From Cellulosimicrobium composti (GTDB lineage: Bacteria > Actinomycetota > Actinomycetes > Actinomycetales > Cellulomonadaceae): a stretch of DNA of 46,382 bases. Location of the stretch: assembly GCF_009711085.1 (NCBI RefSeq), contig NZ_WMKA01000020.1:1-46382 (forward strand), written 5' to 3'. The notes beneath the pieces are model-generated. The model was not told where the DNA came from, ran no database searches, and saw only the letters and a list, made by a program, of their open reading frames with translations. A program made the translations under genes and the position numbers. Numbering within the stretch: the stretch's first letter is position 1; every line of letters begins with the position of its first letter. Shown one piece after another: positions 2,994 to 27,395 of the stretch.

Positions 2994-4373
2994 TCAGCGC
3001 GGGGCGGCCGCCCACGCGGGGGAGAGGGTCACGACGTCGCCCACCACGGTGACCGCCGGGGGCCGGACGCCGGCCTCGCGCGCCCGCGCCGCGATCGTCG
3101 CGAGCGTCCCGACCGTGGTCCGCTGGCGCGGGCCGTACCCGTCCTCGACCACGGCGACGGGCGTCTCGGGCGAGCGGCCCTGCGCGACGAGCGCGTCGGC
3201 GGTCTCGGCGAGGCGCGAGACGCCCATGAGCAGCACGACCGTGTGGTCCCGCGCGGCCGGGACCGTGCCGACGTCCTCGTGCCCGGTGAGCACGGTGAAC
3301 CCGCGCGAGAGCCCGCGGTGCGTCACGGGGATGCCCGCCGCGGCGGGGACGGAGACGGCGCTCGTCACGCCCGGCACGACCTCGACCGGGACGCCGTGCT
3401 CGCGGCACGCCTCGAGCTCCTCGCCGCCGCGCCCGAACACGTACGGGTCGCCGCCCTTGAGCCGCACGACCCGCCGCCCGACGAGGGCGTGGTGCACGAG
3501 GATCCGGTTGATCTCCGCCTGCGGGACGGGGTGGTGGCCCGGCGTCTTGCCGACGTCGATCACCTCCACGTCGTCGCCGAGCTCGGCCAGCAGGCCGCGC
3601 GGCCCGAGGCGGTCGACGACGACGACGTCGGCCTCGGCGAGCAGGCGGCGGCCGCGCACCGAGACGAGCCCGGTGTCGCCCGGGCCGCCGCCGACGAGCG
3701 CGACGGAGCCGACCGGACGCACGAGCGGTGCGGTGACGGCCCCGGCGAGGGACGTCTCGCCGTCGGTCCCGGGCGCGGGGTTGCCCGCGCGGGCCGGGCG
3801 CACCGCGCGCAGCGGCAGCTCGCCGGTCTCCAGGAGCGCGGCGACGGCGTCGCGCACGCGCTGCGCCCGCCGCGGGTCGCGGCCCGCGTTGACGGACACG
3901 GTGACCTCGGCGCCCGTGGCGCCTTCGGGACCGGCGCCCGAGGACGACCCGACGCGCGTGCGCGCGACCGCGGGCACCCACGCCGTCGCGAGGTCCGCGT
4001 CGCCCGCGGTGACGCAGAAGACGCGGTCCGCCTCGGCGTCGGCCGCGACCTGGGCGTCCACGACGGGGTCGCCCGTCGCGGCGTGCGCGAGCCACGCGCC
4101 GTCGAGGTCGCCCGTGAGGTAGTCGCGGCGGACCCACGTAAGCGGCGCGCCCGTCGCGGGGCGCGCGCCCGGCGCGTCGGGCGCGTGCTCGGCGACGAGG
4201 TCCGCGAGGTCCTCGCACACGAACGGCGCGACGACGGTCACGACCGCCCCCGCGTCGAGGAGACCCCGCGTGCGCCGCGCGGCGACGGGCCCGCCGCCCA
4301 CGACGACGGCGAGCCGCCCCGCGAGGCGCAGGCCGAGCGGGTAGGTCTCGTGGTGCTGCTCGCTGGTCGTCAC
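2994..4373 (-). CDS. cysG: Siroheme synthase / uroporphyrinogen-III C-methyltransferase
   Basis: This 459-residue fusion makes siroheme precursors for the sulfite reductase of the same operon. The N-terminal part, to about residue 170, is a SirC/Met8-like precorrin-2 dehydrogenase with an NAD-binding glycine loop (VVVGGGPVAARRTRGLLDAG). The C-terminal part, from about residue 215, is a SAM-dependent uroporphyrinogen-III methyltransferase: VALVGGGPGDTGLVSVRG, VVRLKGGDPYVFGRGGEE and PGVTSAVSVPAAAGIPVTHR are family signatures. It starts with GTG at 4373, 7 bases after cysN, behind a GAGGA Shine-Dalgarno. It is the last gene of the sulfate operon. Whether the N-terminal domain also does the ferrochelatase step, as in enterobacterial CysG, cannot be judged from sequence; many actinobacteria use a separate chelatase. 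Confidence 0.93.
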   Translation of the reverse strand: MTTSEQHHETYPLGLRLAGRLAVVVGGGPVAARRTRGLLDAGAVVTVVAPFVCEDLADLVAEHAPDAPGARPATGAPLTWVRRDYLTGDLDGAWLAHAATGDPVVDAQVAADAEADRVFCVTAGDADLATAWVPAVARTRVGSSSGAGPEGATGAEVTVSVNAGRDPRRAQRVRDAVAALLETGELPLRAVRPARAGNPAPGTDGETSLAGAVTAPLVRPVGSVALVGGGPGDTGLVSVRGRRLLAEADVVVVDRLGPRGLLAELGDDVEVIDVGKTPGHHPVPQAEINRILVHHALVGRRVVRLKGGDPYVFGRGGEELEACREHGVPVEVVPGVTSAVSVPAAAGIPVTHRGLSRGFTVLTGHEDVGTVPAARDHTVVLLMGVSRLAETADALVAQGRSPETPVAVVEDGYGPRQRTTVGTLATIAARAREAGVRPPAVTVVGDVVTLSPAWAAAPR

Positions 4374-4380
4374 GGTGTCC

Positions 4381-5760
4381 TCAGATCGCGTACGAGCCGG
4401 GTCGCTCGGCCGGGCGGCGGACCGCGGCGAGCGCGTCCCCGACCATCCCGGCCGCGAGCGTCCCGCCGTCCTGGGCGTCGACGAGCAGGAACGCCCCCGT
4501 GCGGCGGGCGACGACGTACTCCTCCGCGGCGACGGGGGCGGCGAGGCGCAGCGTGACGCGGCCGATGTCGTTGAGCTCCAGGCGCTCGGCGGGCTCGAGC
4601 TCGGCCGTGTCGAGGTCGAGCCGTCCGACGACGTCGCGCACCACGGCCTGCACGGTGCGGGTGGTGTGCTTGAGCAGCACGCGCGCGCCGGGCAGGAGCG
4701 GGCGGTCGCCGAGCCACGCGAGCGTGCCCTCGACGTCCTGCGTGACGTCGGGGGCCTCGGCCGCGGCGGCGATGAGGTCGCCGCGCGCGACGTCCACGTC
4801 GTCGGTCAGGCGGATCGTCACCGACTGCGGCGCGAACGCCTCGGTGAGCGTCTCGCCGCTCGCGAGCGAGTCGGCCGTGTCGATCCCCGCGACGGTCGTG
4901 CGGCGACCCGAGGGCAGCACCACGACCTCGTCGCCGACGGTGACGACGCCCGAGGCGACCTGGCCCGCGTACCCGCGGTAGTCGCGGTAGCGCTCGTCGG
5001 CCGCGGCCTGCGGCCGGATGACGACCTGGACGGGGAAGCGGAACGACTCGGTCTCCGGGTCGTCACCCGTCGGCAGCTCCTCGAGGAGCTCCAGCAGGCT
5101 CGGGCCGTCGTACCAGGGCGTGTTCGCGCTCGACCGGTCCACGACGTTGTCGCCGACGAGGGCCGAGACGGGGATCGTGTGGACGTCGCCGACGCCGAGC
5201 GACGTCGCCGCCGCGCGGATGTCCGCGGCGAGCTCCGCGTAGCGGGCCTCGCCGTAGTCGACGAGGTCGATCTTGTTCACCGCGACGACCACGTGCGGCA
5301 CGCGCAGGAGGCTCGCGACGGCGAGGTGCCGGCGCGTCTGCTCCAGCAGGCCCTTGCGCGCGTCGATGAGCAGCACCACCACGTCCGCCGTCGAGGCGCC
5401 CGTCACGGTGTTGCGCGTGTACTGCACGTGCCCGGGGCAGTCCGCGAGGATGAACGACCGGCGCGCGGTCGCGAAGTACCGGTACGCGACGTCGATCGTG
5501 ATGCCCTGCTCGCGCTCGGCGCGCAGGCCGTCGGTGAGCAGCGCGAGGTCCGCCGTCTCGAGGCCGCGGTCGCGCGAGACGCGCTCGACGGCGTCGAGCT
5601 GGTCGGCGAGCACGGACTTGGAGTCGAACAGCAGGCGGCCCACGAGCGTGGACTTGCCGTCGTCGACGGACCCGGCGGTCGCGAGGCGCAGGAGCGTGCC
5701 GCGGCGCGTGTCGTCGAGCGGCACGGACTCGCCCTCGACGGTGCTGGTCTGGGTGCCCAT
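4381..5760 (-). CDS. cysN: Sulfate adenylyltransferase subunit 1 (GTPase)
   Basis: This 459-residue CysN hydrolyses GTP to drive adenylyl transfer from ATP to sulfate by CysD, giving adenosine phosphosulfate. Translation-factor GTPase motifs are plain: G1 in AGSVDDGKSTL, G3 in ILADCPGHVQYTRN and G4 in VVAVNKIDLVD, followed by EF-Tu-like beta-barrel domains. The length corresponds to CysN alone. There is no C-terminal APS-kinase (CysC) domain as in mycobacterial CysNC, so the operon does not make PAPS. The ATG at 5760 shares one base with the cysD stop (TGATG), and a GGAGGGG Shine-Dalgarno lies just upstream. Partner: CysD, encoded immediately before it. Confidence 0.96.
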   Translation of the reverse strand: MGTQTSTVEGESVPLDDTRRGTLLRLATAGSVDDGKSTLVGRLLFDSKSVLADQLDAVERVSRDRGLETADLALLTDGLRAEREQGITIDVAYRYFATARRSFILADCPGHVQYTRNTVTGASTADVVVLLIDARKGLLEQTRRHLAVASLLRVPHVVVAVNKIDLVDYGEARYAELAADIRAAATSLGVGDVHTIPVSALVGDNVVDRSSANTPWYDGPSLLELLEELPTGDDPETESFRFPVQVVIRPQAAADERYRDYRGYAGQVASGVVTVGDEVVVLPSGRRTTVAGIDTADSLASGETLTEAFAPQSVTIRLTDDVDVARGDLIAAAAEAPDVTQDVEGTLAWLGDRPLLPGARVLLKHTTRTVQAVVRDVVGRLDLDTAELEPAERLELNDIGRVTLRLAAPVAAEEYVVARRTGAFLLVDAQDGGTLAAGMVGDALAAVRRPAERPGSYAI

Positions 5761-6755
5761 CAGAAGTACCCCTCCTTCTTGCGGTCCTCCATGGCGGCCT
5801 CGGAGAGGCGGTCGTCGGCGCGGGTCGCGCCGCGCTCGGTGATGCGCGTCGCGGCGACCTCGGCGATGACGTCCTCGACGCCGGCGGCGTCCGAGCGCAC
5901 GGCACCCGTGCAGGACATGTCTCCCACCGTGCGGTAGCGCACGGTCTCGGTGCGCACGGACGCGGCCTCGGCGTCGGTGCGGGGCGCGGAGTACGGCCCG
6001 ACGGCGAGCAGCATGCCGTCGCGGTCGAACACCTCGCGCTCGTGCGCGTAGTAGAGCGCGGGCAGCTCGATGCGCTCACGCGCGATGTACCGCCACACGT
6101 CGAGCTCGGTCCAGTTCGACAGCGGGAACACGCGCACGTGCTCGCCCGGCCGGTGGCGCCCGTTGTAGAGGTTCCACAGCTCCGGGCGCTGGTTGCGCGG
6201 GTCCCACTGGCCGAACTCGTCGCGCAGCGAGAACACGCGCTCCTTGGCACGCGCCTTCTCCTCGTCGCGGCGCCCGCCGCCGAACACGGCGTCGAACCGG
6301 TGGTCCGAGATCGCGTCGAGCAGCGGCTGCGTCTGGAGCGGGTTGCGCGTCCCGTCGGCGCGCTCGCGCAGCCGGCCGTCGTCGATGTAGTCCTGCACGC
6401 GCGCGACCTCGAGCCGCAGGCCCAGGCGCTGCGCCGTCGCGTCGCGGTAGGCGAGCACCTCGGGGAAGTTGTGGCCCGTGTCCACGTGCAGCACGGGGAA
6501 CGGCACCGGGCCGGGCGCGAACGCCTTGACGGCGAGGTGCAGCATCACCACGGAGTCCTTGCCGCCGCTGAACAGCAGCACCGGGCGCTCGAACTCGGCC
6601 ACCACCTCACGGATGATGTGGATGCCCTCGCTCTCGAGCGCGTCGAGCTGCGTGAGGCGGCGCGCGCTGGGCAGGGCCGCGGTCGGGGTCGGCGCCGCGT
6701 CCGGGGTGGAAGGTCCCGCGGACGGCGCGTCGGTCGTCAGGTCGATGGTCGTCAT
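5760..6755 (-). CDS. cysD: Sulfate adenylyltransferase subunit 2
   Basis: This 331-residue catalytic subunit of ATP sulfurylase forms the APS-producing complex with CysN. It is an adenine-nucleotide alpha-hydrolase-fold protein with the PP-loop LLFSGGKDSVVMLHLAVKAF. Other CysD-typical segments are FPVLHVDTGHNFPEVLAYRD, RRDEEKARAKERVFSLRDEFGQWDP and FPLSNWTELDVWRYIARERI, and it ends in MEDRKKEGYF. I chose ATG 6755 because GAGGA lies 5 bases upstream. An in-frame ATG at 6767 overlaps the cysH stop (ATGA) but has no Shine-Dalgarno. The first 35 or so residues are a low-complexity Thr/Pro/Ala extension. The gene is coupled on both sides in the sulfate operon. Confidence 0.96.
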   Translation of the reverse strand: MTTIDLTTDAPSAGPSTPDAAPTPTAALPSARRLTQLDALESEGIHIIREVVAEFERPVLLFSGGKDSVVMLHLAVKAFAPGPVPFPVLHVDTGHNFPEVLAYRDATAQRLGLRLEVARVQDYIDDGRLRERADGTRNPLQTQPLLDAISDHRFDAVFGGGRRDEEKARAKERVFSLRDEFGQWDPRNQRPELWNLYNGRHRPGEHVRVFPLSNWTELDVWRYIARERIELPALYYAHEREVFDRDGMLLAVGPYSAPRTDAEAASVRTETVRYRTVGDMSCTGAVRSDAAGVEDVIAEVAATRITERGATRADDRLSEAAMEDRKKEGYF

Positions 6756-6763
6756 GCCCGTCC

Positions 6764-7627
6764 TCATACGTGGAGTCCGCACTCCGTCTTGTCGAGCCCG
6801 GCCCAGCGGCCGGCCCGAGGGTCCTCGCCCGGCGCGACGCGCCGGGTGCACGGCTGGCAGCCGATCGACGGGTAGCCGTCGTTCAGCAGCGGGTTGAGGG
6901 TCACCTGGTGCCGGGTCGCGTACGCGAGCAGGTCGTCGAACGACCAGGCCGCGAGCGGGTTGATCTTCACGAGCCCGTTCTTCTCGTCGAACGTGACGAG
7001 CGGCGTGCGCGTCCGCGTCGGCGCCTCGTCGCGGCGCACGCCGGTGACCCACACCTCGTAGCCGGCGAGCGTGCGGTGCAGCGGCTCGACCTTGCGCATC
7101 TGGCAGCACAGGCCTGGGTCGCGCGCGAAGAGGTCCTTACCGTGCGCGGTGTCCTGCTCGGCGACGGTGAGCTCGGGGCGCACGTCGACGATCGTCACGT
7201 CCAGCTGCTGCTCGACCGCGTCGCGCGTCCCCACCGTCTCGGCGAAGTGGTACCCCGTGTCGAGGAACAGCACGTCCACCCACGGGATCTGCGCCGCGAC
7301 GACGTGGGGGAGCACCGCGTCCGCCATCGAGCACGCGACCGCGACCGACGTGCCGAACTCGCGCGCCGCCCAGGCGACGACCTGCTCGGCCGTGGCCTCG
7401 TCGTCCGCCCCGATGCCGGAGCCCGCGAGCTCGGCCGCGCCGCGCCGCGCGATCTCGCGCAGCTCGTCGAGCGACCGCTTGGGCCGGCCGTGCCGCGCGC
7501 GCTCGGCGTGGTGCGCGGCCTTCGCAGCCTCGCGCTGCTCGGTGCGGGCCCGCGCGGCGGCGCGCAGCGCGGCCAACGGGTCGGTCGTGCCCGGCACGGT
7601 CGTCGTGGTGGCCTGGTCCTCGCTCAC
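6764..7627 (-). CDS. cysH: Assimilatory adenylyl-sulfate (APS) reductase
   Basis: This 287-residue CysH reduces APS to sulfite with thioredoxin-type electrons. It shows a degenerate PP-loop region (VAVACSMADAVLPHVV), DTGYHFAET, and RDEAPTRTRTP for substrate binding. The catalytic cysteine is in the C-terminal KTECGLHV. Two cysteine pairs, CCQMRK and GCQPC, are the ligands of a 4Fe-4S cluster. In this family those pairs mark APS-using rather than PAPS-using enzymes, which fits the missing CysC. The start is GTG at 7627, overlapping the sir stop by 4 bases (GTGA). An N-terminal extension of about 45 residues is charged and Ala-rich, of unknown role. Confidence 0.95.
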   Translation of the reverse strand: MSEDQATTTTVPGTTDPLAALRAAARARTEQREAAKAAHHAERARHGRPKRSLDELREIARRGAAELAGSGIGADDEATAEQVVAWAAREFGTSVAVACSMADAVLPHVVAAQIPWVDVLFLDTGYHFAETVGTRDAVEQQLDVTIVDVRPELTVAEQDTAHGKDLFARDPGLCCQMRKVEPLHRTLAGYEVWVTGVRRDEAPTRTRTPLVTFDEKNGLVKINPLAAWSFDDLLAYATRHQVTLNPLLNDGYPSIGCQPCTRRVAPGEDPRAGRWAGLDKTECGLHV

Positions 7628-9399
7628 CGCAGCGCCTCCTCGTCGGCCCGGTGCGCCCACTCGGCGAACGTCTCGGTCCCGGTCTTGTCCGCCTCGTACC
7701 GGCGCACGACCCGCTCGACGTAGTCCGGCAGGTCGGCGGCCGTGACCTTGAGCCCGCGCACCGTGCGGCCCATGCCCGCGACCTCGCGGTCCTGCGAGGC
7801 GAGCCCGCCGCCGAGGTGGACCTGGAAGCCCGGGACCTGCTCGCCGGCGTCGTCCATGACGAGCTGGCCCTTGAGCCCGATGTCCGCCGTCTGGATGCGT
7901 GCGCACGAGTTGGGGCACCCGTTGACGTGCAGCGTCACGGGACGCATCTGCGACAGGTCGCCGAGCCGCTTCTCGAGCTCGTCGACGGTCGCGGTCGCGG
8001 TGTCCTTGGTGTCGACGATCGCGAGCTTGCAGTACTCGATGCCCGTGCACGCGATCGTGCTGCGGCGGAACGGGCTCGGGTTCGCGTCGAGCCCGTTCTC
8101 CTTGAGCGTCGACACGACGTGCTCCACGTGCTCGTCGGGCACGTCCAGCACGAGGAGCTTCTGGTGCGGGGTGAGCCGCACGCGGCGCGAGCCGACGGAC
8201 TCGGCGAGGTCCGCGACGCGTCCGAGGATCGTGCCCGACACGCGCCCCACGTACGGGGCCGCGCCGACGTAGTTGAGCCCGTCCTTCTGCTTGTGCACGC
8301 CCACGTGGTCCCCCGGGACGGGCGGCTTCGGCGCGGGCGGGCCGTCGGGCAGCCGGTAGCCGAGGTACTCGGTCTCCAGCACCTCGCGGAACCGCTCGGG
8401 GCCCCAGTCGGCGAGCAGGAACTTCAGGCGCGCCTTGTTGCGCAGGCGCCGGTACCCGTAGTCGCGGAAGATCTGCACCACGCCGTGCCAGACGTCGGGC
8501 ACCTGCTCCTCGGTGGCGAAGACGCCCAGGCGCTCGCCGAGGCGCGGGTTCGCGGACAGGCCGCCGCCGACCCACACGTCGAACCCGACGCCGAGCTCGG
8601 GGTGGCGGTGCGCGACGAACGCGACGTCGTTGATCTCGTGCACGACGTCCTGGCTCGGGTGCCCGGTGAGCGCCGTCTTGAACTTGCGGGGCAGGTTCGC
8701 GAGCTCGGGGACGCCGATGTAGCGGCGCGTGATCTCGGCGATCGCCGCGCTCGGGTCGATGAGCTCGTCGGCCGCGATCCCCGCGACGGGGCTGCCGAGC
8801 ACGACGCGCGGGACGTCGCCGCACGCCTCGGTCGTCTGCAGGCCCACGGCCTCCAGGCGGCGCCAGATCTCGGGGACGTCCTCGACCTCGACCCAGTGCA
8901 GCTGGATGTTCTGGCGGTCGGTGATGTCGGCGGAGTCGCGGCCGAACTCCTTCGAGATGTCCGCGATGACGCGCAGCTGCTCGGTCGTCAGGGCCCCGCC
9001 GTCGATGCGGACCCGGAGCATGAAGTACCGGTCCTCGAGCTCGTGCGGCTCGAGCGTCGCCGTCTTGCCGCCGTCGATCCCGGGCTTGCGCTGCGTGTAC
9101 AGCCCCCACCAGCGGAAGCGCCCGTGCAGGTCGTCGCCGGGGATGGAGTCGAAGCCGTCGCGCGCGTAGATCGTCTCGATGCGCTCGCGGACGGACAGGC
9201 CGCCGTCCTCCTGCTTCCACTTCTCGTTCGCGTTGAGCGGCTCGGTGCCGTCGACCTTCCACTGCCCGTTCGGTCGGGCGGCCCGTGCGGGGCGGGCGGG
9301 CGCGTCCGCGCGCCCGGGGCGGCCGGCGTTCCGTCGTGCGGGCCGGCCGGGCGGAGCGGCGCCGTCCGTGGCCTCGGGCGCAGTCGTTGCCTGCGTCAT
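7624..9399 (-). CDS. sir: Ferredoxin-type sulfite (nitrite/sulfite) reductase
   Basis: This 591-residue hemoprotein reduces sulfite to sulfide with six electrons, using siroheme coupled to a 4Fe-4S cluster. The cluster ligands are visible as C-x5-C in IACTGIEYCKLAIVDTKD and C-x3-C in NGCPNSCARIQ. Two homologous halves are recognisable: ITDRQNIQLHWVEVEDVPEI in the first and LTPHQKLLVLDVP in the second. The ATG at 9399 has GAGGA 5 bases upstream. It is the first structural gene of the operon, right after the cysteine leader, and its cofactor enzyme CysG is the last. The subfamily cannot strictly be split from nitrite reductase by eye; the operon makes sulfite the likely substrate. Confidence 0.94.
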   Translation of the reverse strand: MTQATTAPEATDGAAPPGRPARRNAGRPGRADAPARPARAARPNGQWKVDGTEPLNANEKWKQEDGGLSVRERIETIYARDGFDSIPGDDLHGRFRWWGLYTQRKPGIDGGKTATLEPHELEDRYFMLRVRIDGGALTTEQLRVIADISKEFGRDSADITDRQNIQLHWVEVEDVPEIWRRLEAVGLQTTEACGDVPRVVLGSPVAGIAADELIDPSAAIAEITRRYIGVPELANLPRKFKTALTGHPSQDVVHEINDVAFVAHRHPELGVGFDVWVGGGLSANPRLGERLGVFATEEQVPDVWHGVVQIFRDYGYRRLRNKARLKFLLADWGPERFREVLETEYLGYRLPDGPPAPKPPVPGDHVGVHKQKDGLNYVGAAPYVGRVSGTILGRVADLAESVGSRRVRLTPHQKLLVLDVPDEHVEHVVSTLKENGLDANPSPFRRSTIACTGIEYCKLAIVDTKDTATATVDELEKRLGDLSQMRPVTLHVNGCPNSCARIQTADIGLKGQLVMDDAGEQVPGFQVHLGGGLASQDREVAGMGRTVRGLKVTAADLPDYVERVVRRYEADKTGTETFAEWAHRADEEALR

Positions 9400-9550
9400 C
9401 GGGTTCCTCGTGTCCTCGTTCGGGTGCGGGGACGCGCGACGGCGAGCGCTCAGCGAGGGTGCGAGGGGCTGAGGACCGACGGCGCGCGCCGGTTCTCAGA
9501 GTTCTCCAGGGGGAGGGGCGAGCCGGGGCTCGCGCTGAGTCGGGCGCGGT
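9400..9550 (-). promoter_or_regulatory. Transcribed attenuator between the Cys leader ORF and sir
   Basis: The 151 bases between the leader-peptide stop and sir hold competing pairings on the minus strand. CTCAGC occurs twice (complement of 9534-9539 and of 9468-9473). Either copy can pair with a single GCTGAG (complement of 9449-9454). A local hairpin GCGAGC/GCTCGC lies next to the first copy. Mutually exclusive stems after a regulatory-codon cluster are what ribosome-stalling attenuation needs. The pairing set was found by eye and is an inference; no U-tract terminator is visible. Confidence 0.5.
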
Positions 9551-9637
9551 TCAGCGACAACAGCTGAGACACGTGTGCGCGCACGCCGGCATCCCGTGAC
9601 GCGAGGTCACGAGGAGGGTGCGGGCTGCCGTGGTCAT
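9551..9637 (-). CDS. Cysteine-rich leader peptide (regulatory uORF)
   Basis: This is a 28-codon ORF starting MTTAARTLLVTSRHGMPA and ending with four Cys codons among the last ten residues (C19, C23, C26, C27, then Arg and stop). It lies 151 bases upstream of sir on the same strand. A TANNNT-type -10 (TATGGT, 9645-9650) ends 7 bases before the ATG, so the transcript probably starts at the ATG and is leaderless. Poly-Cys leaderless short ORFs acting as cysteine-responsive attenuators are established for sulfur operons of mycobacteria. By analogy, ribosome stalling at the Cys cluster when Cys-tRNA is scarce should favour expression of sir-cysHDNG. An in-frame ATG at 9649 lies inside the -10 and is unlikely. 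Confidence 0.8.
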   Translation of the reverse strand: MTTAARTLLVTSRHGMPACAHTCLSCCR

Positions 9638-9644
9638 GCCGAGA

Positions 9645-9673
9645 ACCATAGCCGCGGCCCGCGCGCGTGGACA
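9645..9673 (-). promoter_or_regulatory. Predicted promoter of the leader ORF and sulfate operon
   Basis: The -10 TATGGT is the complement of 9645-9650. A weak -35, TGTCCA, is the complement of 9668-9673, with a 17-bp spacer. The start point would coincide with the A of the leader ATG at 9637. The less GC-rich stretch at 9697-9735 just upstream may hold activator sites, but no motif is recognised. Confidence 0.55.
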
Positions 9674-9838
9674 CCCCTGGTCCGCATGGTGGGAAACCGG
9701 AAATTCTAGACTCATTCGATCCAGTTTGTCGATCCTGCCGTGACCTGCGACGGTGCCCTCCGCAGTGGCTGGGCGGGGGGCCGACTGCATGTCGCGACGC
9801 CCGTCCGACACCCGGGCGCATCTCACTTTGTGCAAACT

Positions 9839-27241: not shown

Positions 27242-27249
27242 ACTGGGCG

Positions 27250-27330
27250 GCGGCCGCGACTGGCGAGGGTGGGAACGACCACCGGGGAGCGGCCGGATCT
27301 ACCTGCTGGTGCGTCGACCGCCTGGGCGCC
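27250..27330 (+). ncRNA. ZTP (pfl) riboswitch in the purH leader
   Basis: The leader shows the pfl/ZTP consensus. The P1 arms CGGCCGC (27251-27257) and GCGGCCG (27289-27295) enclose GACTGGC, a GGTGG...CCACC stem (27268-27282) and the CGGGGAGC segment. The distal conserved CCGCCTGGGC (27318-27327) provides the pseudoknot side. ZTP riboswitches sense the purine intermediate ZMP/ZTP and typically precede purH. Downstream, CTGGGT (27330-27335) can pair with ACCCAG (27377-27382) next to the GAGGAG Shine-Dalgarno, and a GCGACGG/CCGTCGC hairpin lies at 27346-27365, suggesting translational control (inference). Confidence 0.87.
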
Positions 27331-27395
27331 TGGGTTCTGCCACTCGCGACGGTCAGGTCCGTCGCAGCGACCGCGACCCAGAGGAGCCCCTCGTC

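Follow-up and report, generated by a model that had tools for sequence, protein, structure and literature searches.

A putative cysteine-responsive leader peptide with competing RNA structures upstream of the sir-cysHDN-cysG operon of Cellulosimicrobium

The window analysed in this work, a stretch of 46,382 nucleotides from Cellulosimicrobium composti (a genus that the NCBI taxonomy places in Promicromonosporaceae, Micrococcales), carries on its minus strand a nitrite/sulfite reductase gene followed by genes that span 2994..7600 (-) and whose domains are in line with an order sir-cysHDN-cysG:

7624..9399 (-): sir, nitrite/sulfite reductase of 591 aa, first gene of the operon, start at 9399
9404..9409 (-): GAGGAA, Shine-Dalgarno sequence of sir
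6764-7600 (-): cysH, with a PAPS reductase domain
5760-7109 (-): cysD domain in frame, downstream of sir
4381-5760 (-): cysN, with a CysN domain
2994-4373 (-): cysG-like gene, with a tetrapyrrole methylase domain

This domain content bears out the original prediction that a leader precedes sir, cysH, cysD, cysN and a cysG-like gene. The only Rfam match in the window is a ZMP/ZTP riboswitch (27246-27334 (+), 50.1 bits). Compared with L009 in windows of 150 bases, two other genomes (L021 and L022, genomes G016 and G011) show an identity of only 66-93% in sir, of 99% in the leader window and of 91-100% in the flanks, apart from a single intergenic window at 73%, which looks like a replacement of the sir gene beneath a retained leader.

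Upstream of sir there is a short upstream ORF (uORF) preceded by a -10 hexamer, with the following elements:

9551..9637 (-): leader-peptide uORF of 28 codons, peptide MTTAARTLLVTSRHGMPACAHTCLSCCR, stop codon TGA at 9551-9553
9645..9650 (-): -10 hexamer TATGGT, followed by the 7 bases TCTCGGC and then by the uORF ATG at 9637
9557..9583 (-): Cys codons 19 (9581-9583), 23 (9569-9571), 26 (9560-9562) and 27 (9557-9559), the proposed sensor
9594..9612 (-): hairpin H1 within the uORF, TCGTGAC (9606-9612) pairing with GTCACGG (9594-9600)

The sequence at 9551-9637 contains the minus-strand ORF of 28 codons that had been described, with its four Cys codons all among the last ten. The -10 hexamer does end exactly 7 bases ahead of the ATG, a spacing that fits the leaderless type and that is backed by comparison, as a TANNNT motif lies 7 bases ahead of the start in 29 of the 34 leaders compared and 6 or 8 bases ahead in the remaining 5 (11 of the 34 had themselves been picked with a TANNNT filter). 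Judging from this promoter, the mRNA of the uORF would be leaderless and would start at or near its A. A second promoter-like site, TCGACA-18-TAGAAT, is found upstream of the uORF promoter (9703-9732 (-)), and because of it a longer transcript is possible; TAG/TAC-type hexamers recur at this region in part of the genus. We also observed a candidate operator, AT[AG][CT]GGAC, located 35-60 bases ahead of the uORF start in 25 of the 34 leaders (here at about 9672-9697 (-)), which is often part of an inverted repeat that is clear in some genomes, e.g. GTCCGCCATGCGGAC.

That relatives should conserve the Cys codons had been named as a test of the idea, and they do. When 16 genomes of the same genus were searched, a full-length sir match was obtained in 15 (the 16th, 75% complete and without a full match, was not counted), and all 15 keep the uORF and have TANNNT exactly 7 bases ahead of its ATG; one of the uORFs (L013) has three Cys rather than four. 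A leaderless-type Cys uORF occurs in 8 of 14 other genomes of the same family that have full-length sir (in L017 and L020 it starts with GTG), and 6 have no such uORF. In addition, 80 loci from named genomes were scanned, 4 of them too short to be counted. A first scan with a strict filter passed 14 of 76. When two or more Cys were required together with TANNNT 6-8 bases ahead of ATG or GTG, all 15 loci of the family group of Cellulosimicrobium passed and none of the 15 did in reverse; among the 61 other loci 3 passed, against 1 of 61 in reverse. Requiring at least 3 Cys, the figures were 14 of 15 and 3 of 61. These figures should be read knowing that the family group was assigned by genus name, with a membership that we presume, that it was delimited after the strict scan and after L041 and L049, both missed by the strict filter, had been seen, and that its L031, L032 and L035 are genomes G006, G013 and G026 of the same-genus search. 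The 61 other loci are mostly from Micrococcaceae, Microbacteriaceae and Brevibacterium, and only one of the three that passed, L074 (a MAG), looks convincing. The conservation proposed across Micrococcales holds for the family group of Cellulosimicrobium and is not supported beyond it. In the rest of the class 2 of 61 loci passed against 0 of 61 in reverse, in a scan that is blind to single-Cys leaders such as L172, in which the anchor lies inside the gene in L159, L165 and L169 (perhaps also in L164) and in which the stretches of L191, L193 and L201 are short. Two genomes at class level, L166 and L172, have leaderless-type uORFs ending in RRHVDLLRVRSAIC ahead of sir; L166 is one of the two loci that passed, and its uORF matches the family NF042934.

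The leader peptides vary widely, and Cys persists amid changing residues (SVCALPCPRCCR, ACAPVCPSCCR, STACARNSFCCCC, NSCRCC). Cys codons lie near the end in most of them (CLSCCR, SFCCCC, DNSCRCC, STCCCCC, VATCCC, QCSCR) and are more internal in the uORFs of L017, L041 and L049. The suggestion that the peptide has no further role fits this divergence. The genome was scanned with three patterns that describe leaderless uORFs with an ATG start and adjacent Cys codons; they gave 1, 14 and 16 places, and an in-frame check left the sir uORF alone. uORFs starting with GTG, Cys codons set apart from each other and pairs led by TGT with short gaps lay outside the patterns, which also missed the single-Cys leader at G000:C24:29327-29377. 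Matches to these patterns occur genome-wide at close to the control level. In the relatives, among the matches listed, most are due to chance and the sir uORF recurs within the genus.

The hairpin H1 sits just ahead of the Cys codons. In an alignment of 21 of the 34 leaders (9 near-identical and 4 divergent ones dropped), on which H1 was both predicted and counted, each of its 7 pairs has at least one two-sided change and 88.9% of the cells pair. Its covariation of 0.408 compares with 0.193 in shuffles and was reached by 0 of 500 of them, and versions slid along the alignment gave at most 0.148. In L016 the entire stem is altered, and the amino acids with it, and the pairing is kept; therefore it is the RNA and not the peptide that appears to be under constraint at H1.

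Between the uORF and sir, the conserved pairings involve seven segments:

9543..9548 (-): P1, CGCGCC, beginning three bases past the stop codon
9535..9539 (-): B, CTCAG, partner of C in the first structure (AT)
9495..9499 (-): C, CTGAG, partner of B or D
9483..9490 (-): P2, GGCGCGCG, partner of P1 or P3
9468..9473 (-): D, CTCAGC, partner of E in the second structure (TT)
9449..9454 (-): E, GCTGAG, partner of D in TT
9431..9438 (-): P3, CGCGCGTC, ending 31 bases ahead of the sir ATG

By computation, these segments can form two mutually exclusive structures, AT (P1 with P2 and B with C) and TT (P2 with P3, enclosing D with E). This is not the arrangement originally described, in which two CTCAGC segments compete for one GCTGAG. 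In fact sir is preceded by three copies of CTCAGC (one within the uORF at 9563-9568, the others at 9534-9539 and 9468-9473) and one GCTGAG (9449-9454, that is, CTCAGC on the plus strand), and the hexamer is not enriched in the whole window (18 found against 28 expected from shuffles). A pairing through the copy in the uORF was rejected, as this copy is altered in L004, L011 and L014, of the same genus, which retain both downstream copies.

The structures were assessed in an alignment of 23 of the 34 leaders, and the counts refer to leaders in which the architecture was seen, because 5 near-identical and 6 divergent leaders were dropped. In AT 85.0% of the cells pair, and its covariation of 0.103, against 0.053 in shuffles, was reached by 0 of 500; this signal stems from B:C and an inner helix, the P1:P2 helix having no two-sided change. 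In TT 88.3% of the cells pair, with weak covariation (a score of 0.116 against 0.101, reached by 70 of 500 shuffles), and AT is thus the better supported of the two by covariation. L019 aligns poorly and was omitted from the counts on folding energies and ribosome masks. When the regions were folded in isolation, both the P1 and P2 sides were paired in 22 of 22 rows for AT, with B:C visible in 20, and P2:P3 was paired in 22 of 22 rows for TT. The mean z of the folding energy over the 22 rows was -2.9 for AT and -1.9 for TT, with the exceptions of L016 (-0.09) for AT and of L030 (-0.06) and L038 (-0.35) for TT. Much of the support for both structures is conservation and not covariation, because some rows barely vary within the genus.

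We consider it probable that the operon is controlled by a cysteine-sensing, ribosome-mediated leader-peptide attenuation with a trp-like layout. We infer the initiation, the stalling, cysteine as the signal and the direction of control, and events would proceed as follows. Transcription would begin at or near the A of the uORF, which would be translated as a leaderless mRNA. With ample Cys-tRNA the ribosome would get to the stop codon and cover P1, leaving P2 free for downstream pairing (with P3 around D:E, or locally as C with D), and expression would halt before sir. When cysteine is scarce the ribosome would wait at the Cys codons, P1 and B would be free to pair with P2 and C, and the operon would be expressed. 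H1, ahead of the Cys codons, would occupy the place of the 1:2 pausing hairpin of trp-type leaders.

Folding with ribosome masks, in which 13 bases from the A site onward were taken as covered, addressed the switching. When the A site was placed at the second-last Cys, P1:P2 formed with a probability of 0.81-0.99 in 12 rows (Cellulosimicrobium and Oerskovia flava), 0.84 in L024 and 0.53 in L016. In the other 8 of the 22 rows the Cys codons abut the stop codon and this mask already covers P1, giving 0.00; with the mask at the first Cys these same rows gave 0.89, 0.82, 0.63, 0.42, 0.14, 0.04, 0.04 and 0.00. In L014 the first-Cys mask gave 0.01. With the ribosome at the stop codon, where P1 is covered by construction, P2:P3 reached 0.5 in 10 of 22 rows; for the sequence of the window itself the value was just 0.07, C:D together with B:E winning instead. 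These probabilities give good support to the on-state within the genus and less to the off-state.

With regard to the output step, the nearest precedent would be a translational attenuation as in mycobacteria, in which the ribosome stalled on Cys codons keeps a leader structure from sequestering the Shine-Dalgarno sequence of sir. This is the mechanism tested in mycobacteria, as far as the accessible part of that literature goes, sir has a clear Shine-Dalgarno sequence, and P3 lies 22-36 bases ahead of the start in those leaders where this distance was measured by eye. However, in equilibrium folding, moving the mask from the first Cys to the stop codon raised the exposure of the Shine-Dalgarno by at least 0.1 in 11 of the 34 leaders, lowered it in 1 and left it within 0.1 in 22, so that a change of 0.1 in the direction expected from relief by stalling is lacking in 33 of 34. 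As exposure does not rise on stalling, unmasking on starvation is not favoured; the masks gave no consistent response that would speak for Shine-Dalgarno masking as the output, and we regard this explanation as rather unlikely. The original claim that the mycobacterial mechanism operates here is not supported in that form either, since control in mycobacteria is described as translational, the predicted exposure is not raised on stalling, and Seliverstov (2005), in its accessible part, describes no conserved hairpins in mycobacterial leaders. An intrinsic terminator was rejected: no terminator-like site was found, and no U-tract in any of the 34 leaders (no 8 bases hold more than 4 T). The off step would most likely be a premature termination by Rho or at a U-less hairpin rather than a masking of the Shine-Dalgarno.

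The stretch from the uORF to sir has a mean C of 0.47 and G of 0.28, with C exceeding G in 34 of 34 leaders, as compared to 0.37 and 0.36 in sir itself. This composition suggests that Rho could be loaded on the leader, and Rho might even act with no structural switch, if the C-rich stretch left behind a finished uORF loaded it and stalling altered only the spacing between ribosome and polymerase. The absence of a U-tract would agree with that, and Rho was proposed for the mycobacterial leaders in a prediction that, in the accessible part of the paper, is itself called weak (Seliverstov 2005; PMC1262725). Such a model leaves the conserved P1, B, C, P2, D, E and P3 segments and their energies unexplained, and we find it improbable. 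It is still less probable, to the point of being remote, that a transcription factor controls the operon from the conserved upstream site present in 25 of 34 leaders and that the uORF is minor or a relic, as the Cys tails and the covarying hairpin would be unaccounted for, although both controls could coexist. Finally, a chance short ORF in GC-rich DNA, which single hexamers such as CTCAGC and the genome-wide pattern matches at control level might bring to mind, is practically incompatible with its retention in all 15 same-genus genomes with sir and with the 15 of 15 against 0 of 15 in reverse.

Going back to cysteine-sensing attenuation, its fuller version would combine structure switching, a leaderless uORF, a pausing hairpin inside the ORF and termination by Rho or without U-tract, and would represent, within Actinomycetota, a second way of attenuating the same sulfite reductase gene by cysteine, with a mechanism distinct from that of mycobacteria. 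We put this version forward tentatively, at somewhat less than even confidence.

In trp-type attenuators, control codons and a stop codon that immediately precedes the first pairing segment are followed by mutually exclusive structures, one of which is a terminator hairpin with a U-tract. The sir leader shares the control codons, a first segment just past the stop and mutually exclusive structures, the second weakly backed by covariation; in contrast, it has no U-tract after the second structure, its uORF is of the leaderless type and the presumed signal is cysteine. Polycysteine leaderless short ORFs were reportedly tested in mycobacteria in 2020, where nirA is the counterpart of sir. A Cys-rich uORF has been described ahead of nirA in those bacteria (Shell 2015), and other papers cite Canestrari (2020) for translation attenuation there. 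As far as that material goes, the mycobacterial ORFs are alike in being leaderless-type, with C-terminal Cys codons and a position ahead of cysteine and sulfur genes including nirA, and here too a conserved Cys cluster is found near the uORF end, placed before sulfur genes. Unlike them, the sir leader has a hairpin inside its ORF and a conserved switch past the stop codon, and predicted Shine-Dalgarno masking does not fit. Cys leader peptides were also predicted for Mycobacterium, Propionibacterium acnes and the cbs gene of Bifidobacterium longum (Seliverstov 2005; PMC1262725). In the accessible part of that work these leaders resemble ours in having Cys codon runs near the stop, upstream of cys genes, with no classical terminator, Rho being considered; they differ in that H1 and the two competing structures are conserved here across several genera, while no conserved hairpins were found in the mycobacterial ones.

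The peptide of the window did not match NCBIfam NF042933, NF042934 or NF042936 at E up to 10. A second Cys leader of the same genome (L205, G000:C24:29327-29377 (-)) belongs to NF042934, with a dicarboxylate/amino-acid symporter gene about 240 bases downstream of it. It ends in RRDVDLRRVASALCR / LTQRRDVDLRRVASALCR with one Cys in its core, unlike the window peptide, was recovered from all 17 genomes of the genus that were searched, from 16 of them above the cut-off, and has no TANNNT before its possible starts. In the metL leader before metNIQ of Streptomyces lividans TK24, three of the last nine residues are Cys, according to the accessible part of its description (PMC8079986). From its sequence this leader might respond to cysteine rather than methionine, and its peptide did not match the NCBIfam models.

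Our literature search, thin on subscription journals, found no published report of the sir leader in Cellulosimicrobium, in Micrococcales or among actinobacterial attenuators. The kind of control would be ordinary and its place unreported; a conserved RNA switch together with an intra-ORF hairpin looks new for cysteine leaders. Cysteine leader-peptide control of sulfite reductase would thus be extended to a family for which we found no report, and the conserved competing RNA structures provide the element that was missing from the 2005 prediction. The presence of two unlike Cys leaders in one genome, the sir uORF and the NF042934 leader, makes a comparison between them possible, and the sir leader offers a direct way of testing U-tract-independent attenuation in GC-rich actinobacteria.
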